This document shows, one piece after another, positions 2,899 through 58,400 of a DNA stretch of 64,000 nt. The notes beneath the pieces were generated by a model. That model worked only from the letters and a program-made list of their open reading frames with translations, had not been told where the DNA came from and made no database searches. Source of the stretch: Pseudomonas sp. MWU16-30317 (GTDB lineage Bacteria > Pseudomonadota > Gammaproteobacteria > Pseudomonadales > Pseudomonadaceae); the NCBI RefSeq assembly GCF_020515695.1, contig NZ_JAIWJA010000001.1, forward strand, positions 806,001 to 870,000, read 5' to 3'. The stretch's first letter is position 1, and each line of letters starts with the position of its first letter. The position numbers were made by a program, and so were the translations under genes.

Positions 2899-3960
2899 TC
2901 AGGCGGCGGCTTCAGCCTTGAGCGTCGCCATATCGATCACGAAACGGTACTTGACGTCACCCTTGATCATGCGCTCGTAGGCCTCGTTGATGTCCTTCAT
3001 GGCAATGATCTCGATATCCGAAACGATGCCTTGCTTGGCGCAGAAATCCAGCATTTCCTGGGTTTCACGAATCCCGCCGATCAACGACCCGGCCAGGCTG
3101 CGGCGCTTGAAGATCAGATTGAACACGGTAGGCGATGGATGCGGGTGGTCCGGAGCACCGACCAGGGTCATGGTGCCGTCACGCTTGAGCAGACTGAGGA
3201 AGGCATCCAGGTCGTGGGGCGCGGCCACGGTGTTGAGGATGAAGTCCAGGCGGTTGGCCTGGGTGGCCATCTCGTCCGGGTTGCGCGAGACCACGACCTC
3301 ATCGGCGCCCAAGCGCAGACCGTCCTCGCGCTTGCTTTCGGAGGTGGTGAACAGCACCACATGGGCACCCATGGCATGGGCGATTTTCACCGCCATGTGA
3401 CCCAGCCCGCCGAGGCCGACGACGCCGACCTTCTTGCCGGGGCCGACTTTCCAGTGGTTGAGCGGCGAAAAGGTGGTGATGCCCGCGCACAACAGCGGCG
3501 CCACGGCCGCCAGGTTGTCGGTAGGGGCGATGTGCAGGACGAATTTTTCCTTCACCACCACACTGTCGCTATAGCCACCAAAGGTGTTTTCGCCGCCGAA
3601 CACTGGCCCGTTGTAGGTGCCGGTGAAGCCGTTTTCGCAGTATTGCTCTTCGCCCTCGGCGCAGGAAGCACAGTGCTGGCAGCTGTCGACCATGCAGCCA
3701 ACGCCGGCCAGATCACCGACCTTGAAGCGCGTCACGGCCGAACCGACGGCGGTCACCTTGCCGACGATTTCATGCCCGGGGACCGATGGATACAGGGTGT
3801 TCTGCCATTCATTGCGCGCGGTATGCAGGTCAGAGTGGCAAACGCCGCAAAACAGGATGTCGATCTGCACATCGTCAGCGCCCGGTGCACGCCGTTCGAT
3901 CTTGAACGGCTTGAGGCGATCACTGGCGTTTTGCGCTGCGTAGGTTAAGGCCTGGGTCAT
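2899..3960 (-). CDS. Zinc-dependent NAD(P) alcohol dehydrogenase, YahK/cinnamyl-alcohol type
   Basis: A 353-residue medium-chain dehydrogenase. Catalytic zinc ligands lie in CGVCHSDLH and GHE; the structural zinc site is CQHCASCAEGEEQYC; the dinucleotide-binding motif is GVVGLGGLGHMAVKIA. The overall pattern matches YahK-like aldehyde reductases, NADPH-preferring cytosolic enzymes that reduce a broad range of aldehydes. AGGAG lies 7 nt before the ATG at 3960, which supports this start. The two-component genes diverge upstream and the sugar porter follows. Physiological substrate is unknown. Confidence 0.88.
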   Translation of the reverse strand: MTQALTYAAQNASDRLKPFKIERRAPGADDVQIDILFCGVCHSDLHTARNEWQNTLYPSVPGHEIVGKVTAVGSAVTRFKVGDLAGVGCMVDSCQHCASCAEGEEQYCENGFTGTYNGPVFGGENTFGGYSDSVVVKEKFVLHIAPTDNLAAVAPLLCAGITTFSPLNHWKVGPGKKVGVVGLGGLGHMAVKIAHAMGAHVVLFTTSESKREDGLRLGADEVVVSRNPDEMATQANRLDFILNTVAAPHDLDAFLSLLKRDGTMTLVGAPDHPHPSPTVFNLIFKRRSLAGSLIGGIRETQEMLDFCAKQGIVSDIEIIAMKDINEAYERMIKGDVKYRFVIDMATLKAEAAA

Positions 3961-49274: not shown

Positions 49275-50732
49275 TTGAGCGAGCTGCATCAACAAGCCAT
49301 CAACTACGTCTATCTGCAGGTGTTACAGAAACTGCAGTGCCACTATTCCCATCGCCAGCGCCTGGCGCTAGAGCAGCTCATACCGCGCATCATTCTGGCG
49401 GCGGGTGGCCCGGGCCGGTTGGGGGAGTACCGGATCATGGTCGCCCATAATGGCGGTCGCGAGAGTGCTCAGGCCGTCGCCTTTCTGCGCGCTGCGCAGT
49501 TAAGCCTGACGGTACGCTGTGGGCAGACCTTCCTTCTGCGAATCGTGACCTGTCGCCAGGAAACCCTCACCGAGCCCACTGCGGGTAATGTACGGCGCCT
49601 CTACGCTGCCTTGTTCGTCGAGGACGACCCACGGGTAGAGACTCTGCTGGCCGACGATCATCAGGTATCGCCCTTCGACCTGCCGGAAGTTGGCATGGAG
49701 CCATTATCCGCCGTCCGGCGCATGAACTTGTTGATGGCAGGGCAGATCACCGGGGGCGATGTCCGCGCGACCTTCTGCCATCTCGATCACCAGCGCTACG
49801 CCAATGCCTTGCAGCGCGGCCTGCACTGGGGCGGCGCGGTGAATGCGCTGGTCCGGCTCGAGTCACCGCGCCAACGCCATCAGTATCAACTCTGGTCCCG
49901 CCAAGTCGCGCGCCGTGCTCAATCGCTGGCTCAACAGCGCGAAGTCGATGACCCTTTGCTCCAATCGTTCTGCGCGTTGCGTGCGGGGCTCGGGCAGGGC
50001 GCTCGTCCGCCACGGACCGTCAAGTCGTTGGCCTTGGACGATCTTATGGACGAGATTCTCGACACACCTTGCATGCCATTGCTCGAGTTCCTCGGCTTTC
50101 GGCTGACGGATCTGGGCGCGGTGATCGGCCAGGCCGATCTTGCTCATCCATTGCTGCTGGCGCATATCGCAGGGCTGCGATCCGAAGCCCTGACACTGCT
50201 CGACTACCGCGACGGCATCGAACACTACCTGAACCTCTCAAGCCCTTTGTTGCGTCAGCGCAAGTTGCCCCAGGAGTTGCTTCGTGCAGCGTTGGCCGGT
50301 TATGCCACCAAAGCAACCCTCACCGCCCACCGCAAACGGGCCAATGCGCTGCTCACTACACGCTATGGCCTAGGTGAAAAGCAGCTGGTGTGCATGCTGT
50401 TCGCGCCTTTTGTCGATCAGGGCGCCGGACTTGCGCGCTATCTGCGCCATTGCCATCACAGCATGCCGCGGGCGCTGCCCTATATGCATAGCGCACTGGC
50501 TGGCGAGACGGTGCCCATGCCCGTCCAACAATGGTTGACCGAGAGCAGCGGGTTGCCATTGAAACGATTGCGGGAGCTGTACAGGATGGCGCGGGTGCAC
50601 GTCGACGACGACCAGGGATTGTTGGCGAATTCGCCGCACTGGCCGCTCAACAGCCGTGGCGTGCGGGGCCTGCATCCGGTGACCGGTTTGCCCGCCCTGA
50701 GCCCGGCCAGCCGACGCGAGCGTGAATCATGA
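49275..50732 (+). CDS. Unrecognised 485-residue protein
   Basis: I do not recognise a family. The protein is mostly alpha-helical and soluble by eye, rich in Leu, Arg and Gln, with no signal peptide, membrane segment or clear catalytic motif. The N-terminal third (YLQVLQKLQCHYSHRQRLAL) looks helical; the C-terminal part ends in a basic Arg-rich tail (LSPASRRERES). The start is TTG at 49275 with AGGG 7 nt upstream; no ATG or GTG gives a better start. Its stop overlaps the next ATG as ATGA, so it is coupled to the MocR-like gene and the two probably act together. Confidence 0.7.
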   Translation: MSELHQQAINYVYLQVLQKLQCHYSHRQRLALEQLIPRIILAAGGPGRLGEYRIMVAHNGGRESAQAVAFLRAAQLSLTVRCGQTFLLRIVTCRQETLTEPTAGNVRRLYAALFVEDDPRVETLLADDHQVSPFDLPEVGMEPLSAVRRMNLLMAGQITGGDVRATFCHLDHQRYANALQRGLHWGGAVNALVRLESPRQRHQYQLWSRQVARRAQSLAQQREVDDPLLQSFCALRAGLGQGARPPRTVKSLALDDLMDEILDTPCMPLLEFLGFRLTDLGAVIGQADLAHPLLLAHIAGLRSEALTLLDYRDGIEHYLNLSSPLLRQRKLPQELLRAALAGYATKATLTAHRKRANALLTTRYGLGEKQLVCMLFAPFVDQGAGLARYLRHCHHSMPRALPYMHSALAGETVPMPVQQWLTESSGLPLKRLRELYRMARVHVDDDQGLLANSPHWPLNSRGVRGLHPVTGLPALSPASRRERES

Positions 50733-52147
50733 CCAGGGCAGCGGCCCGCGGCTATGCCTATCAAACCGTGTACGCCTATCTGGCGAGCCTGATTGCCGAA
50801 GCCACCGGCGAGCACAAGATCCGCCTGCCGTCATTGCGCGACCTGGCCAGCCGCCTGGACGTCTCCGTATCGACCGTACAGCATGCCTACCAGCTACTTG
50901 AAAGCGAGGGGCGGATCATGTCCGTGGCCAAGTCCGGCTATTATGCTGTCGCCTCCCCAGCGGGCCCGCCGCTCGCTGCACTGGCCACGCCCACCGCCGA
51001 ACCCGATCTGCTGCAAAGCCTCTACCACCATGCCTGTACCCCGGGCATGTGGGCACTGCACCGCAGCGACCCCTGGCCTGGCGACGCCTTTGGCCAGGCC
51101 CTGACCACACGGGAGCGGGAGATCCGGCGCCAGCACCGCAGCCCCGACAGCCATCCACTAGGCGAGCCGGCGCTGCGACGCGAACTGGCGGCGCGCTATA
51201 CCCAGGCTACCCATCACCGCTGGTGTGCCGATGATGTCTATCTAGCGGCCGATCTGCGCGCCACCCTCGATATCACCCTGGCCGCGCTGGATATCAGTGG
51301 CCGCACGGTGATGATCACGACCCCGGCGTCCCCCGTATTACTGATGGCACTCGACGCTGCGGGGCTGGATGTCTGCGAGTTGCCCCTGGATATGGGCGGC
51401 GACCTGGATCTCGAGCGGGCCGCACACTACTTGCGCGAGCGTGCGGTGGCGCTGGTGATCCTCAGTTCCACGCTCAATGGCCCACAAGGCGCACTCGTGC
51501 CTGACACCACTCGACAGGCGTTGGCAAAACTGCTCGATCACCACGGCACCTGGGTGCTTGAGGACGATGATCATGGCGAGTTGTGTTTTTCCCATGAGAC
51601 TCCCTTGCGAGATTGGGTAGCTCCGGAGCGTTTGCTCGTGTGTGGCTCGTTCGCACGGACCATCGGCACCGAAGCGCGCTATGGCTACCTGCTGGTTCCA
51701 CCGGAGGCGCGCTCGCCGATGACTGCATCGGTGCGTCAGCGCTTGTTGCAACGTGACTTCCATCTGCCTCCAGTACGCCAGAAGGCCATCGCGCGCCTTT
51801 ACCAGCGCAGGGCCATCGATGGCCAACTGCGTTCCCTGCGCAACGGCCTGAAACTCAATGTTGGTCGGCTGGTGCAGCAACTCGATGACAGCCTGGGCGA
51901 TCTGCTCTGCGTGCCGATGCCTGCGGGTGGCAGCGGGGTGTGGGTGAGTAGCCGCCACGCCATCGATGTGCGACAGGTGTACGACCACCTGCTGAGACGA
52001 CACATCCTCATCGCCCCAGGGCCGGTGTTCAGCAGCCAGGGCCATCATTCTCAATGCCTGCGCATCGCCTGTCCGGTCAACGGACGGGGGCTGCCGGGGC
52101 GGGTGATCGCCGAGTTGCGCAAGGCGTTGCAGTCTGGCCGTCGCTGA
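50729..52147 (+). CDS. MocR-like protein lacking the PLP lysine
   Basis: A 472-residue GntR-HTH/aminotransferase fusion. The N-terminal winged helix is clear (LPSLRDLASRLDVSVSTVQH, then AYQLLESEGRIM). In the aminotransferase domain the asparagine region (LNGPQGALVPD) and aspartate (LEDDDHGELCF) remain. The lysine that should hold PLP is replaced: GSFARTIGTEARYGYL has R310 where GSFSK is normal, as in the MocR gene at the start of this window. The usual Tyr after the aspartate is His. It therefore probably cannot form the internal aldimine and may be a repurposed regulator. Coupled to the upstream unknown gene; fan1 follows 91 bp later under its own promoter. Confidence 0.82.
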   Translation: MTRAAARGYAYQTVYAYLASLIAEATGEHKIRLPSLRDLASRLDVSVSTVQHAYQLLESEGRIMSVAKSGYYAVASPAGPPLAALATPTAEPDLLQSLYHHACTPGMWALHRSDPWPGDAFGQALTTREREIRRQHRSPDSHPLGEPALRRELAARYTQATHHRWCADDVYLAADLRATLDITLAALDISGRTVMITTPASPVLLMALDAAGLDVCELPLDMGGDLDLERAAHYLRERAVALVILSSTLNGPQGALVPDTTRQALAKLLDHHGTWVLEDDDHGELCFSHETPLRDWVAPERLLVCGSFARTIGTEARYGYLLVPPEARSPMTASVRQRLLQRDFHLPPVRQKAIARLYQRRAIDGQLRSLRNGLKLNVGRLVQQLDDSLGDLLCVPMPAGGSGVWVSSRHAIDVRQVYDHLLRRHILIAPGPVFSSQGHHSQCLRIACPVNGRGLPGRVIAELRKALQSGRR

Positions 52148-52174
52148 TCGAGGCGATCCATTGGTCGCCAGACA

Positions 52175-52206
52175 TTGTCATCGGCAGGGACTGTATGTAT
52201 AAACAG
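52175..52206 (+). promoter_or_regulatory. Sigma-70 promoter overlapped by a LexA (SOS) box, for fan1
   Basis: TTGTCA (52175-52180), a 17-bp spacer and TATAAA (52198-52203) give a near-ideal promoter. CTGTATGTATAAACAG (52191-52206) matches the LexA consensus CTGT-N8-ACAG exactly and covers the -10. The predicted transcript starts about 30 bp before the fan1 GTG. SOS control of the fan1-helicase pair is therefore strongly suggested. Confidence 0.82.
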
Positions 52207-52238
52207 GCCATGTTTTTTCCGTTGAAATATCTCGTCTC

Positions 52239-53969
52239 GTGACCATTCCTGCCAACTCCCTCGAAGACCCATTCTACTACCTGAGCAATTTTCGCCAGGT
52301 ACTGGCCTGGTTGCGCGAGCGCTACAGCGATGTGCTTTGCAACGAAGAACTGGCGTTCGTCGATGGCTTCGCCGTGCTCGACAAGGCCGCCCAGGCGCTG
52401 CTGGTGCGGATGATCATGCGCAAAGGCCCCTTGTATCGCGCGAGCAAACTGGTCTATGCCGAAATCGGTCCTACCGAACTTGCCGTGGCCCCGTTACTGC
52501 AGCGCGGCTGGGTCGACGATCAGCACCCCATCAGCCTGGGGCAGTTGTTCGATCTGCTGGGCAAGGCCGAACTCTATCAGCGCTTTCGTCACCACGGCCT
52601 GCTCTCGGGGGCACGCAAGGCGCAATGGCTCGAACAGCTGTGCGAGCACTACCTCGATGAGCAGCCCTTCGCCCATTGGTGGCCGGAGCTGGACGACGCA
52701 GTCTACGCGCTGCAGATCCGCGGGCTGTGTGAGCGCATGCGCTTGCTGTTTTTCGGCAATCTTTATCAGGACTGGTCGGAGTTCGTGCTGGCCGACCTGG
52801 GGATCTACCGTTACGAACAAGTACCCCTGAACGCGGAATCACGCAGCCTGCATCACGCGACCCATATCGACCAGTACATGGTCTTGCACGAGGCCCGCCA
52901 GGCGTTGGAAGCAGGGCTTGAGCGCGAGCCCTTGGTAGCTGGGGTGCTGAGCCTTGAACTCGACAACCCGTGGCTGCGCAGTCGACGCGACAAACTGCTG
53001 TTCCAGATGGGGTATCTGTATGAGCGCGAAGGGCTGCTGGATCAGGCGCTGGTGATCTATCAGGCCAGCACTTTCGCCGAAAGCCGCGCGCGGCAGGTAC
53101 GCGTACTCGAACGCATGGGCCGCTTGGAGCAAGCTGTGGAATTGGCGCAAAGCGCCCTGCAATCGCCGCAAAATGCATTGGAGGCTGCGCCCAACGCTGC
53201 CGAGCGTCAGCAATTGCAACGCATGCTGCCACGCCTGCGCCGAGGCCTGGGGTTACCCGCGCAACCCAAGCGCAAGGCCGCGCCGCCGCAACGTCTCGAT
53301 CTGTGCCTGCTGCGTGATGGGCCAGCGCGCAGCGTCGAGGCCTGGGTCCAGGCGCATCTGCAGGAGGAGGGCGGCCTGGTGTTCTATGTCGAGAACACCC
53401 TGTTCACGTCATTGTTCGGATTGCTGTGCTGGCCTGCGATCTTCGCGCCATTGCCCGGAGCGTTCTTTCACCCATTCCAGAGCGGGCCCACTGATTTGCA
53501 CCAGGCCGACTTCCACGCGCGCCGGGCGGCGCTGTTCGAGGCCTGCCTCATGGAGCTGGAGGATGGCCGCTACCCGGCGACGATCCGCCAGCGCTACCGC
53601 GATAAATTCGGCCTGCAGTCGCCCTTCGTATACTGGAGCATGCTGGACGAAGCCTTGCTCGATCTGGCCCTCAAGTGCCTGCCCGCTGCGCACCTGTCGC
53701 ACTGTTTCCGGCGCATGCTCGAAGACCTCAAGGCCAACTGCGCCGGCATGCCTGACCTCATCCAGTTCTGGCCCGAGCGCCGCAGCTACCGGATGATCGA
53801 GGTCAAGGGGCCGGGCGATCGGCTGCAGGACAACCAGGTGCGCTGGCTGGCCTTCTGCGCCGAACATCGCATGCCCGTGGAGGTCTGCTATGTGACTTGG
53901 CAATCCAGCGCCGATGACACATTGATCGACACCGCGATCGCAGCCATGGCGCAGCAGGCCGATGCGTGA
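52239..53969 (+). CDS. fan1: FAN1-type structure-specific nuclease (VRR-NUC)
   Basis: A 576-residue bacterial FAN1 homologue. The N-terminal DNA-binding part opens with DPFYYLSNFRQVLAWLRERY, followed by a helical repeat region and a C-terminal VRR-NUC nuclease. By my count catalytic D506 (GMPDLIQF), E521 and K523 (MIEVKGPGDRL) are within one residue of those reported for P. aeruginosa FAN1, a 5'-flap nuclease that can unhook interstrand crosslinks. The start is GTG at 52239; nearby ATGs are out of frame and no strong ribosome site is visible. The stop overlaps the helicase GTG, so the pair is coupled. A LexA box overlaps its promoter. Confidence 0.92.
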   Translation: MTIPANSLEDPFYYLSNFRQVLAWLRERYSDVLCNEELAFVDGFAVLDKAAQALLVRMIMRKGPLYRASKLVYAEIGPTELAVAPLLQRGWVDDQHPISLGQLFDLLGKAELYQRFRHHGLLSGARKAQWLEQLCEHYLDEQPFAHWWPELDDAVYALQIRGLCERMRLLFFGNLYQDWSEFVLADLGIYRYEQVPLNAESRSLHHATHIDQYMVLHEARQALEAGLEREPLVAGVLSLELDNPWLRSRRDKLLFQMGYLYEREGLLDQALVIYQASTFAESRARQVRVLERMGRLEQAVELAQSALQSPQNALEAAPNAAERQQLQRMLPRLRRGLGLPAQPKRKAAPPQRLDLCLLRDGPARSVEAWVQAHLQEEGGLVFYVENTLFTSLFGLLCWPAIFAPLPGAFFHPFQSGPTDLHQADFHARRAALFEACLMELEDGRYPATIRQRYRDKFGLQSPFVYWSMLDEALLDLALKCLPAAHLSHCFRRMLEDLKANCAGMPDLIQFWPERRSYRMIEVKGPGDRLQDNQVRWLAFCAEHRMPVEVCYVTWQSSADDTLIDTAIAAMAQQADA

Positions 53970-56233
53970 GCTACCGTATTTCGGTTCGCGCGCTGTGCGA
54001 ATTCACCGCCAAGGTCGGTGACCTCGACTTGCGCTTCACCCCTTCGCCGACGGCGCTGGAAGGCATCCAGGGGCATCTGCGTGTGACTGCCGGGCGCCCG
54101 GCCAGCTACGAACGGGAAGTCAGCCTCAGCCTCGATTTCGAAGACCTGCAGGTGCGTGGGCGCGCTGACGGTTATGACGCCAGCACCCATTGCCTGGAAG
54201 AGATCAAGACTCACCGCGGCGACCTGAGCCGCCAGCCCGACAACCACCGGCAATTGCACTGGGCCCAGGCGCGCCTTTACGGCTGGATGCTATGCGAACA
54301 GCGCCAGCTGGCGCAGATCGAGTTGGCCCTGGTTTATCTGGATGTCGACAGCGATCGCCAGACCCGCTTCGAACAGACCTGGCAGGCGGAGGATCTGCGC
54401 GAGTATTTCGAGCGCTTGTGCCGGCAGTTCCTCGGCTGGGCACGGCAGGAGATGCTGCGCACGGCACTGCGCAATACCGGCCTGCAAGCGCTGGCGTTCC
54501 CCCATGGCAGCTTTCGCAGCGGCCAGCGGCAGTTGGCCGAAACCGTCTACAAGGCGGTCAGCACCGGGCGCTGCCTGATGGCGCAAGCCACCACGGGCAT
54601 CGGCAAGACCCTGGGCACGCTGTTCCCGATGCTCAAGGCCATGGTCCCGCAGCAACTGGACAAGATTTTTTTCCTTACCGCCAAGACCCCAGGCCGGCAG
54701 CTGGCACTCGATGCCCTGCGTCAAGTGCACAGCGCACAACCGGACTTGCCCTTGCGAGTGCTCGAACTGGTGGCCCGCGACAAGGCGTGCGAACACCCCG
54801 ACAAGGCCTGTCATGGCGATGCCTGCCCCTTGGCCAAGGGCTTTTATGACCGACTGCCGGCGGCCAGAGCCGAGGCTGCCAAGGCGCCGCTGCTCGACCG
54901 CGCCCACCTGCGCGACATCGCCCTGAGCCATGACGTGTGCCCTTATTACCTGTCCCAGGAAATGGCGCGCTGGGTCGACGTGGTAGTGGGCGATTACAAC
55001 TATTACTTCGACCAGAGCGCCTTGTTGTTCGGCCTGGCCCAGGAACATCAATGGCGCCTGGCGGTGCTGGTGGACGAAGCCCATAACCTGGTCGAGCGCG
55101 GGCGTCAGATGTACAGCGCCAGCCTCGACCAGCGCACGCTGCAGACACTGCGCAAGCAGGCCCCGGCGGTGCTGAAGACGGTGCTGCAGCGGGTTAATCG
55201 CGAGTGGAACGCGCTGCACAGGGACCAGATCGCGGTGTATCAGGCCTATGACACGCCGCCGACCCTGCTGTTACTGGCGTTGCAGCGTTGCGTCGCCAAG
55301 ATCGGCGACCTGCTCAACGAACAGCCCGAAGGCCTGGCCCCCGAACTGATGGACTTTTACTTCACGGCGCTGCAGTTCACCAAGGTGGCCGAGTTGTTCG
55401 ACGATGGCTATGTCTTCGATATCAGCCTGCAGCAGGGCCCCAGGCAGAGCAGCCATTCGCGCCTGTGCCTGCGCAACGCGGTGCCCGCGCGCCTGCTAGG
55501 CCCGCGGCTGGCGGCAGCACGCAGTTGCGTGCTGTTCTCGGCCACCCTGAGCCCGCGGCACTACTTCGCCGATCTGCTGGGCATGCCGGCCGACTATGCC
55601 TGGCTCGACGTGCAATCGCCGTTTGCCGCCGAGCAGTTGGAGGTCCAGTTGGCGGCGCATATCTCCACGCGCTACAGCCATCGCCAGGCTTCCCTGGTAC
55701 CGATTGCCGAGCTGATCGCCCGGCAGTTCTCCCAGCGGCCCGGCAACTATCTGGCGTTTTTCAGCAGCTTCGACTATCTGCAACAGGTCGCGGCATTGGT
55801 CGCCGAACGCTATCCACAGCTGGCGCTGTGGTTGCAGGAACGGCAAATGGACGAGGCGCGGCGCGGGGCTTTTATCGAGCGCTTCCAGGCTGGCGGCCAG
55901 GGCATCGGCTTTGCCGTACTGGGCGGGGCCTTTGGCGAGGGTATCGATCTGCCTGGCAGTCGCCTGATTGGCGCCTTTGTTGCGACCTTGGGGCTGGCGC
56001 AAGTCAACCCGGTCAACGAACAACTCAAGCAGCGCCTGCAACTGCGCTTTGGCGCGGGTTACGACTACACCTATCTGTATCCCGGCCTGCAAAAGGTCGT
56101 GCAGGCCGCCGGGCGGGTGATCCGCGGCGTGCACGACCAAGGCGTGGTCGTGCTGATCGACGATCGTTTCGCCGAGGCCAAGGTGCAGGCGTTGCTGCCC
56201 AACTGGTGGCCCGCGCCCATCGCTTGCGCCTGA
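53966..56233 (+). CDS. PD-(D/E)XK nuclease fused to XPD/DinG-type iron-sulphur helicase
   Basis: A 755-residue protein. The N-terminal 110 residues look like a RecB/Cas4-type nuclease: D68 (GRADGYD), E79-I-K81 (EEIKTH), and Q101 with Y105 (QARLYGWM). The helicase follows, with Walker A GIGKT (about 211-215) and D370 EAH box (VDEAHNL). Four cysteines, C275, C282, C287 and C325, fit the XPD-type 4Fe-4S cluster. It should unwind DNA 5' to 3' and possibly cut it. GTG at 53966 overlaps the fan1 stop. Encoded with FAN1 under a LexA box, it is very likely a partner in crosslink or flap repair; the exact reaction is untested. Confidence 0.88.
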   Translation: MSYRISVRALCEFTAKVGDLDLRFTPSPTALEGIQGHLRVTAGRPASYEREVSLSLDFEDLQVRGRADGYDASTHCLEEIKTHRGDLSRQPDNHRQLHWAQARLYGWMLCEQRQLAQIELALVYLDVDSDRQTRFEQTWQAEDLREYFERLCRQFLGWARQEMLRTALRNTGLQALAFPHGSFRSGQRQLAETVYKAVSTGRCLMAQATTGIGKTLGTLFPMLKAMVPQQLDKIFFLTAKTPGRQLALDALRQVHSAQPDLPLRVLELVARDKACEHPDKACHGDACPLAKGFYDRLPAARAEAAKAPLLDRAHLRDIALSHDVCPYYLSQEMARWVDVVVGDYNYYFDQSALLFGLAQEHQWRLAVLVDEAHNLVERGRQMYSASLDQRTLQTLRKQAPAVLKTVLQRVNREWNALHRDQIAVYQAYDTPPTLLLLALQRCVAKIGDLLNEQPEGLAPELMDFYFTALQFTKVAELFDDGYVFDISLQQGPRQSSHSRLCLRNAVPARLLGPRLAAARSCVLFSATLSPRHYFADLLGMPADYAWLDVQSPFAAEQLEVQLAAHISTRYSHRQASLVPIAELIARQFSQRPGNYLAFFSSFDYLQQVAALVAERYPQLALWLQERQMDEARRGAFIERFQAGGQGIGFAVLGGAFGEGIDLPGSRLIGAFVATLGLAQVNPVNEQLKQRLQLRFGAGYDYTYLYPGLQKVVQAAGRVIRGVHDQGVVVLIDDRFAEAKVQALLPNWWPAPIACA

Positions 56234-56336
56234 CAGGCCGAAGTAACCGGCGCAATCCGCAGGCGCGATGCAACTGTTAGCGTCCACGGCAATCATAAAG
56301 GGGGACAGCAGCCACCCAGATGGACGAACTTGCCCC

Positions 56337-58400
56337 ATGAGCAAACCGACACCGGAACACGTGCAATGGCTGGTCGACCAGTCGATGCTGCATGCCGCGC
56401 AACAGCGCGCCACCTTGTACTCAGGCCAGGCCCGACTGTGGCAACGGCCCTTCGCCCAGGCCCGACCGCGCGACGCCTCGGCTATCGCCTCGGTCTGGTT
56501 CACCGCCTATCCTGCCTCGATCATCACCCGCGAAGGCGGCTCGGTGCTCCAGGCGCTGGGCGATGAGGCGCTGTGGCACGCGCTCTCGGAGATCGGCATC
56601 CAGGGCATCCACAACGGGCCGCTGAAACGCTCCGGCGGCTTGCAAGGTACGAACTACACGCCAACGATCGACGGCAACTTCGACCGCATCAGCTTCGACA
56701 TCGACCCGAGCCTGGGCACCGAGGCCGAACTCAGCGCGCTCAGCCGTATCGCCGCCGCCCACAACGCCGTGGTCATCGAAGACACGATCCCCTCGCACAC
56801 TGGCAAGGGCGCGGACTTTCGCCTGGCGGAAATGGCCTACGGGCAGTATCCCGGCCTGTATCACATGGTCGAAATCAAGGAAGAAGACTGGCCACTGCTA
56901 CCCGACGTGGCGGCCGGGCGCGATGCCTGCAATTTGACGCCCGACGTGGTCGACCAATTGCGCGACAGGCACTACATCGTCGGCCAGTTGCAACGGGTGA
57001 TTTTCTTCGAGCCCGGAGTCAAGGAAACCGACTGGAGTACCACGCCAGTGGTGGTTGGCGTCGACGGTAAACCGCGGCGCTGGGTGTACCTGCACTATTT
57101 CAAGGAAGGCCAGCCGTCGCTCAACTGGCTCGACCCCAGCTTCGCCGCCCAGCAGATGATCATCGGCGACGCCCTGCATGCGATCGACGTGGTCGGCGCG
57201 CGGATTCTGCGCCTGGACGCCAACGGTTTTCTGGGCGTGGAACGCCGCCCCGAAGGTAACGCCTGGTCCGAGAGCCACCCGTTGTCGGTGGTCGGCAACC
57301 AGCTGCTTGGCGGTGCCATTCGCAAGGCCGGCGGTTTCAGCTTCCAGGAGCTGAACCTGACCATCGACGACATCGCCAGCATGTCCCATGGTGGTGCTGA
57401 TCTGTCCTATGACTTCATCACGCGTCCGGCCTATCAACACGCGCTGCTCACCGGTAACACCGAGTTCCTGCGCCTGATGCTGCGCCAGACACACCAGTTT
57501 GGCATCGACCCGGCCTCGTTGATCCATGCCCTGCAGAATCACGACGAATTGACCCTCGAGCTGGTGCACTTCTGGACACTGCACGCCCACGACACCTACC
57601 TGTACCAAGGCCAGACCTTCCCCGGCAATATCCTGCGCGAGCACATTCGCGAGGAAATGTACGAACGCCTGGCCGGTGAACACGCGCCCTACAACCTCAA
57701 GTTCGTCACTAATGGCGTGTCGTGCACCACCGCCAGCATCATCACCGCAGCGCTGGGTATTCGTGAGCTCGATAGCTTGACCGCCGAGGATATCGCGCGC
57801 ATCCAGCACATCCACTTGCTGCTGGCCATGTACAACGCCATGCAGCCCGGGGTGTTCGCGCTGTCTGGCTGGGACCTGGTGGGGGCGTTGCCACTGCCCG
57901 CCGAGCAGGTTGCGCACCTGATGGCCGATGGTGACACGCGCTGGATCCACCGGGGCGCCTACGACCTGGTCGACCTCGATCCGAGCGCCGAGATCTCGAC
58001 CGGGCAGATGCCCAAGGCCCGCGCCCTGTATGGCAGCTTGCCAGACCAGTTGCAGCGTCCCGACTCGTTCGCTTCGCAGTTGAAGAAGATCCTCGCAGTG
58101 CGCCGCGCCTACGATATCGCCGCGAGCAAGCAGATCCTGATCCCCGACGTTCAGCATCCTGGGCTGCTGGTGATGGTGCATGAACTCCCGGCGGGCAAGG
58201 GCACCCAGATCACCGCACTGAATTTTTCGGCCGAGCCTTTGGTCGAGACGTTGCAATTGCCGGGTGTAGCACCGGGGCCGGTGGTCGATATCATTAATGA
58301 ACGGGTTGAAGGCGATCTGACCGAGCAGGGCGAATTCACCATTACCCTGGACCCATATGAAGGCTTGGCACTGCGGGTGGTAAGTACTTCATTGCCTTGA
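56337..58400 (+). CDS. treS: Trehalose synthase TreS (maltose alpha-D-glucosyltransferase), P. stutzeri type
   Basis: A 687-residue GH13 enzyme that interconverts maltose and trehalose. It strongly resembles the trehalose synthase of P. stutzeri CJ38 over long stretches. GH13 elements: nucleophile Asp in [11 protein letters not shown], acid/base Glu in FSFQELNLT, and transition-state Asp in QNHDE. Trehalose here would serve as osmolyte or carbon store. The ATG at 56337 ([10 protein letters not shown]) is preferred over one at 56268; the ribosome site is weak. No glycogen or other trehalose genes adjoin it. Two hairpins follow. Confidence 0.92.

Follow-up and report, generated by a model that had tools for sequence, protein, structure and literature searches.

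What controls fan1 in Pseudomonas, and with which partner does its product act? Human FAN1 matters in crosslink repair and in repeat-expansion disease, and we know of no FAN1 in E. coli. The 64-kb stretch of Pseudomonas DNA analysed here, which we call the window, carries a fan1 gene directly followed by a gene for a nuclease fused to an XPD-type helicase. A sequence-only reading of this DNA had proposed that the two genes form an SOS-induced, physically coupled crosslink-repair module, controlled by LexA from a box over their promoter.

Layout of the locus

The fan1 gene (576 aa, GTG start) occupies positions 52239-53969 of the forward strand. The EndoDinG-type nuclease-helicase gene (755 aa, likewise with a GTG start) follows on the same strand at 53966-56233, and sequence and open frames agree that the fan1 stop and the helicase start have the four letters GTGA (53966-53969) in common, just as the sequence-only reading had it. 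On the 5′ side, a gene for a GntR-aminotransferase (MocR-type) regulator on the same strand ends at 52147; on the 3′ side, the helicase is followed by a trehalose synthase (maltose alpha-D-glucosyltransferase) gene. A scan of 53850-56450 returned no promoter between or behind fan1 and the helicase, and terminators at chance level (2 versus 1.9 expected), leading us to reject a separate promoter or terminator inside or after the gene pair. Further 5′ of the MocR-type regulator lies a 485-aa open frame (49275-50732) without a Pfam match at E 0.001.

The two proteins

The fan1 product contains FAN1_HTH, FAN1 SAP and VRR_NUC domains (Pfam), with the catalytic PD..(D/E)xK present as PD..EVK. It aligns over residues 5-555 with the PaFAN1 structures PDB 4r89 and 5y7g (E ~1e-182), the former of which we take to be the P. 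aeruginosa FAN1 protein. Likeness to PaFAN1 thus comprises this match and the VRR_NUC catalytic motif; the difference lies in the partner gene and its control, LexA control not having been found described for PaFAN1, and these are the new part. Gwon 2014 and Jin 2018, both cited by PMC12796719, name a 5′-flap and crosslink-unhooking activity of PaFAN1 in their titles, and by homology the window's fan1 would have a role in crosslink repair. In one other genome (G178:C1:1261822-1263425), two adjacent matches make up fan1, which suggests a frameshift.

The second protein has DEAD_2 and Helicase_C_2 domains (Pfam), the SF2 motifs ATTGIGKT, VDEAH and QAAGRVIR, and four FeS cysteines (Cys 275, 282, 287 and 325). 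At its N-terminus, the PD-(D/E)XK nuclease residues H, E, D and ExK are present (GRADGYD...EEIK at 65), the H and the first E having been identified by eye where the protein aligns with PDB 9kqh. This structure, whose subgroup the match does not state, aligns end to end with the helicase. On sequence grounds, the protein fits the EndoDinG subgroup of DinG-like proteins (PMC11981726, section 3.7), with which it has in common the N-terminal nuclease residues, the four FeS cysteines and the XPD-type motor, the fit being judged by residues and the 9kqh alignment. It differs in its setting: section 3.7 of PMC11981726 is silent on an operon and on SOS control, and FAN1 and VRR are both absent from the paper's main text. 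A plain DinG was considered and rejected, since the helicase, at 88.6 bits, stays far below the NCBIfam DinG equivalog cut-off of 598, and the genome has a better DinG elsewhere (L024, 543 bits for a frame truncated at the end of the locus).

A LexA-type box upstream of fan1

The exact CTGT-N8-ACAG that had been noticed at 52191-52206 of the forward strand, CTGTATGTATAAACAG, is present and is the only one in the window. It lies just before fan1, as described, with 32 nt between the end of the box and the start codon instead of the 33 bp given earlier. Exactness alone proves little, because chance would place 0.8 copies of the bare CTGT-N8-ACAG in the window: shuffled windows held a mean of 0.80, and at least one occurred in 53 of 100 shuffles. 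The longer pattern CTGTATATATATACAG, allowing up to three mismatches, has one match in the window versus a mean of 0.00 in shuffles.

The genome encodes LexA (L009, an open frame with LexA_DNA_bind) and contains CTGTATNNATNNACAG at eight exact places; with at most one mismatch, this pattern yields 29 strand-hits versus 3 for a reversed control pattern. Boxes in this genome precede two umuD-like genes (L003, called by Pfam, and L008, called by resemblance), yebG, lexA, recN, uvrB, dinG and a topoisomerase III gene, and other sites of the LexA-like pattern precede genes that are not obviously SOS. The recN box, CTGTATAAATAACCAG, has its CCAG end in common with most Pseudomonas fan1 boxes. From the boxes of umuD-like genes (two), yebG, lexA, recN, uvrB and dinG, we trained a position weight matrix (PWM), keeping the fan1 and topoisomerase III boxes out; these seven share the LexA form by selection, because they were found with a LexA-like pattern. 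The window's box scores 22.2 bits, within the training range of 18.8-24.2. As a side observation, the box before the topoisomerase III gene (CTGTATGGGTATACAG at C13:329679-329694, 77 nt upstream; L015) may mark a further SOS member.

The promoter that the box was said to overlap, TTGTCA-N17-TATAAA (52175-52203, forward strand), fared less well. Its hexamers can be read by eye (TTGTCA at 52175-52180, then 17 nt, then TATAAA at 52198-52203, with the -10 inside the box). A consensus scan of 52100-52300, whose rule needs a T at the last -10 position, does not list it and gives one site, on the opposite strand. Of 140 relatives, 93 have no TTGNMA within 40 nt upstream of the box and one has it at the window's spacing, and a conserved -35 at that spacing was rejected. 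Because the scan does not list it and the -35 spacing is rarely kept, we regard the promoter assignment as weaker than that of the box.

Conservation of the box in Pseudomonadaceae

We scored the region from -150 to +30 of fan1 with the PWM, at a threshold of 8 bits and a stricter level of 10, in two sets of loci: the named set, made up of the top 80 among 466 relatives from named genomes (78 are titled Pseudomonas), and 60 Pseudomonadaceae loci from 11 genera, chosen by genus and identity with their upstream DNA still unseen (the sampled set). A box of at least 8 bits precedes fan1 in all 80 named loci (at least 10 bits in 35) and in all 60 sampled loci (at least 10 bits in 58), as it does in 29 of 29 further loci of the same genus, some of whose promoters are identical to named ones. 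By comparison, letter shuffles reached 8 bits in 1-2% of cases, four equal-size neighbouring control windows gave 0-3 matches in 80 and 0-1 in 60, and helicase starts, also taken as controls, gave 0/80 and 0/57. Throughout the named set, the box starts 27-48 nt 5′ of the aligned fan1 start, mostly as CTGTACGCATAACCAG or CTGTATGCATAACCAG, and the DNA around it varies from locus to locus. In the nearest genome examined (G126), where FAN1 is 93% identical to PaFAN1, the box reads CTGTATGCATGAACAG; P. aeruginosa itself was not among the genomes found.

These locus counts are not independent, because many loci are close relatives. A column profile of the 60 sampled loci gives 1.42 bits for the box and 0.22-0.25 for its flanks, a figure inflated by the anchoring of rows on the best box, and the case for conservation rests on the control windows instead. 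Loci left unscored were L209 (too little upstream DNA), L223 (below the cut-off, no alignment) and L205 and L106 (the window itself); L196-L203 and L313 were also outside the scoring. A further Pseudomonadaceae locus with a box, L207, lies outside the 60, as do the genera g5, g14 and g17, which have FAN1.

Whether the box is kept in related species was one of the points on which the sequence-only reading had put its claim at stake, and kept it is. Its conservation before fan1 in relatives is what makes the box credible, and strongly supports the proposed SOS control; on this evidence, fan1 is very likely under LexA. That the palindrome instead arose by chance at an ordinary constitutive promoter, with the operon outside LexA control, agrees with how often the bare motif is expected in such a window, but is very hard to reconcile with near-empty control windows, varying surrounding DNA and a box at every locus scored in both sets. 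How tightly LexA would bind is a separate matter: the box is imperfect at most of the 80 named loci (exact CTGT-N8-ACAG in 5, at least 10 bits in 35; compare 30 exact among the 60 sampled), so that binding there may be weak.

FAN1 and its box in other families

FAN1_HTH is found in 20 of 369 Gammaproteobacteria genomes. Outside the Pseudomonadaceae, a box of at least 10 bits precedes fan1 at 14 of 14 loci of family f145 and 20 of 31 of family f141 (shuffles 2%), the other 11 f141 loci falling under 10 bits; at one f141 locus (L256), the box lies outside the scored window. A third family, f3, has a degenerate box (22/31 loci at 8 bits, 14/31 at 10). In f141, the scored loci represent 31 of the 39 genomes that gave a match, in f3 31 of 105 and in f145 all 14. 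Among remaining class members scored, the box is present in one of ten and absent from nine.

Two observations stand beside these counts. Many f3 loci (in L265-L293) have the recurrent variant ATGGATNNATGAACAG before fan1, possibly a weak LexA site whose left half is degenerate. One f141 locus (L222) carries tandem LexA-like boxes at -45 and -24 before fan1, a gene that may be broken or interrupted there, because the matched frame has only 118 aa.

Relation to known damage responses

We found no description of the regulation of bacterial fan1 in searchable papers. LexA control of FAN1 was likewise not found in the open-licence literature searched; subscription papers such as Cirz 2006 could hold an earlier mention, for example in a table. 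Other open literature naming both FAN1 and LexA concerns, in its available parts, mismatch repair, Lynch syndrome and a T6SS effector, and the main text of a Shewanella piezotolerans LexA paper names no nuclease, VRR or FAN1.

What is available of PMC12796719 bears most closely on the locus. There, PA1865, which is tied to crosslink unhooking, and PA1866 are induced by UV-C and placed outside the LexA, PrtR and AlpR regulons, with 15 known SOS genes counted in P. aeruginosa; ciprofloxacin induces PA1865 and hydrogen peroxide represses it. PA1865, for which that paper gives FAN1 references, is the P. aeruginosa FAN1, and the gene order in the nearest genome (L143) suggests that PA1866 would be the helicase. 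The operon is not to be confused with PA1044-PA1045, an identity that we considered and rejected: in the accessible text, these are named as LexA genes separately from PA1865, which counts there as another gene, belonging to none of the regulons. The fan1 box is of the same type as those of the Pseudomonas LexA regulon, whereas fan1 and the helicase are absent from this regulon as described in the parts of PMC12796719 at hand.

Could the box then be a conserved operator for another LexA-like repressor, be it a LexA paralogue or one of PrtR/AlpR type, with damage induction arriving by another route? Some pseudomonads have a second LexA with its own motif, which lends this reading some appeal. 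The placement of PA1865/PA1866 outside three known regulons (PMC12796719, as far as available) would also fit. Against it, the same motif stands before lexA, recN, yebG, uvrB, dinG and umuD-like genes of this very genome and recurs in families f145 and f141, and we consider another repressor improbable.

We favour, with high confidence, an SOS operon, in which LexA would sit on the box and fan1 and EndoDinG would be made together upon damage. LexA on the box would repress transcription of both genes; DNA damage would give rise to RecA filaments and LexA self-cleavage, upon which FAN1 and EndoDinG would be co-produced. The UV-C induction of PA1865/PA1866 speaks for this indirectly; that PMC12796719 does not count the two genes as known LexA targets, and that hydrogen peroxide represses PA1865, speak against it. 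Control by LexA, shared with an FeS helicase-nuclease, would account for the otherwise unassigned induction of PA1865-PA1866, and would add to the SOS response a nuclease that E. coli cannot show.

Linkage of the helicase to fan1

Do the two products also work together? The helicase adjoins fan1 at 80 of 80 named, 57 of 60 sampled and 5 of 5 f3 loci, which confirms the proposed operon with an XPD-type nuclease-helicase. Adjacency is found at one of nine f141 and none of four f145 loci (one more f145 contig ends too early), and where no adjacent copy exists (eight genomes of f141, four of f145), the helicase is missing genome-wide (E 1e-40). The box belongs to fan1, not to the gene pair, because in 10 of these 12 helicase-less genomes, out of 13 checked in the two families, fan1 still has it. 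Two FAN1 genomes, G735 and G698, have neither the helicase nor a fan1 box.

In three sampled Pseudomonadaceae, fan1 stands alone with its box and the helicase lies elsewhere in the genome. Each detached helicase is preceded by a box-like site: CTGTACGCCTATCCAG at -69 in G222 (7.6 bits), CTGTACACCCATCCAG at -86 in G216 (7.6 bits) and CTGTACGGATAACCAG at -83 in G007 (10.0 bits), two of the three being under the 8-bit threshold. Since the helicase promoters of G222 and G216, at least, look by eye like the usual fan1 promoter, the site was probably kept, not gained. Across the class, 13 of 369 Gammaproteobacteria genomes encode the helicase, and in 12 its contig also carries FAN1 (P ~1e-16, uncorrected for relatedness); in G404, the one genome that departs from this, no box precedes the helicase. 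All 11 Pseudomonadaceae checked, out of 41 that have no FAN1, lack the helicase too. Of the physical coupling suggested earlier, what stands is gene overlap and co-occurrence in 12 of 13 helicase genomes.

These patterns frame the most serious alternative, namely that the SOS wiring is real and the two genes are merely co-transcribed, the helicase having another repair job and no part in a joint module. FAN1 occurs without the helicase in the 12 f141 and f145 genomes, most of them with a box, and in G404 the helicase occurs without FAN1. Yet the helicase is otherwise found with FAN1, is missing along with it, and has a box-like site at all three places where it is detached. We think mere co-transcription rather less probable than not.

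A joint FAN1-EndoDinG machine is plausible, backed by gene linkage, co-occurrence and the box-like sites after separation. In it, FAN1, a 5′-flap and crosslink-unhooking nuclease if it behaves as its P. aeruginosa homologue, would cut near an interstrand crosslink or stalled fork, and the FeS helicase-nuclease would open and trim the DNA around it, much as FANCJ works with FAN1 in plants. The available parts of PMC6550410 describe FANCJB as acting with FAN1 in Arabidopsis crosslink repair, in which an FeS helicase likewise works in concert with FAN1; the plant system is eukaryotic, with no operon and no LexA, and the comparison is an analogy, not one of homologous systems. A broader reading would make FAN1 an SOS member in much of the FAN1-bearing Gammaproteobacteria, with EndoDinG as its partner in a dedicated, damage-induced crosslink-repair machine and LexA control surviving their separation; such a machine, combining two nucleases with an FeS motor, would be the bacterial equivalent of FAN1-FANCJ. 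We hold this tentatively, as falling a little short of an even chance. With the pair wired in this way, FAN1 function could be studied by simple genetics.

Another neighbour is seen in family f141. In L302, a small gene (3180-3455) follows fan1, and the first 40 residues of its product match TIGR03643, below the cut-off; the small gene after fan1 in L304 (3226-3537) looks similar by eye. It is possibly a fan1 neighbour where the helicase is missing.
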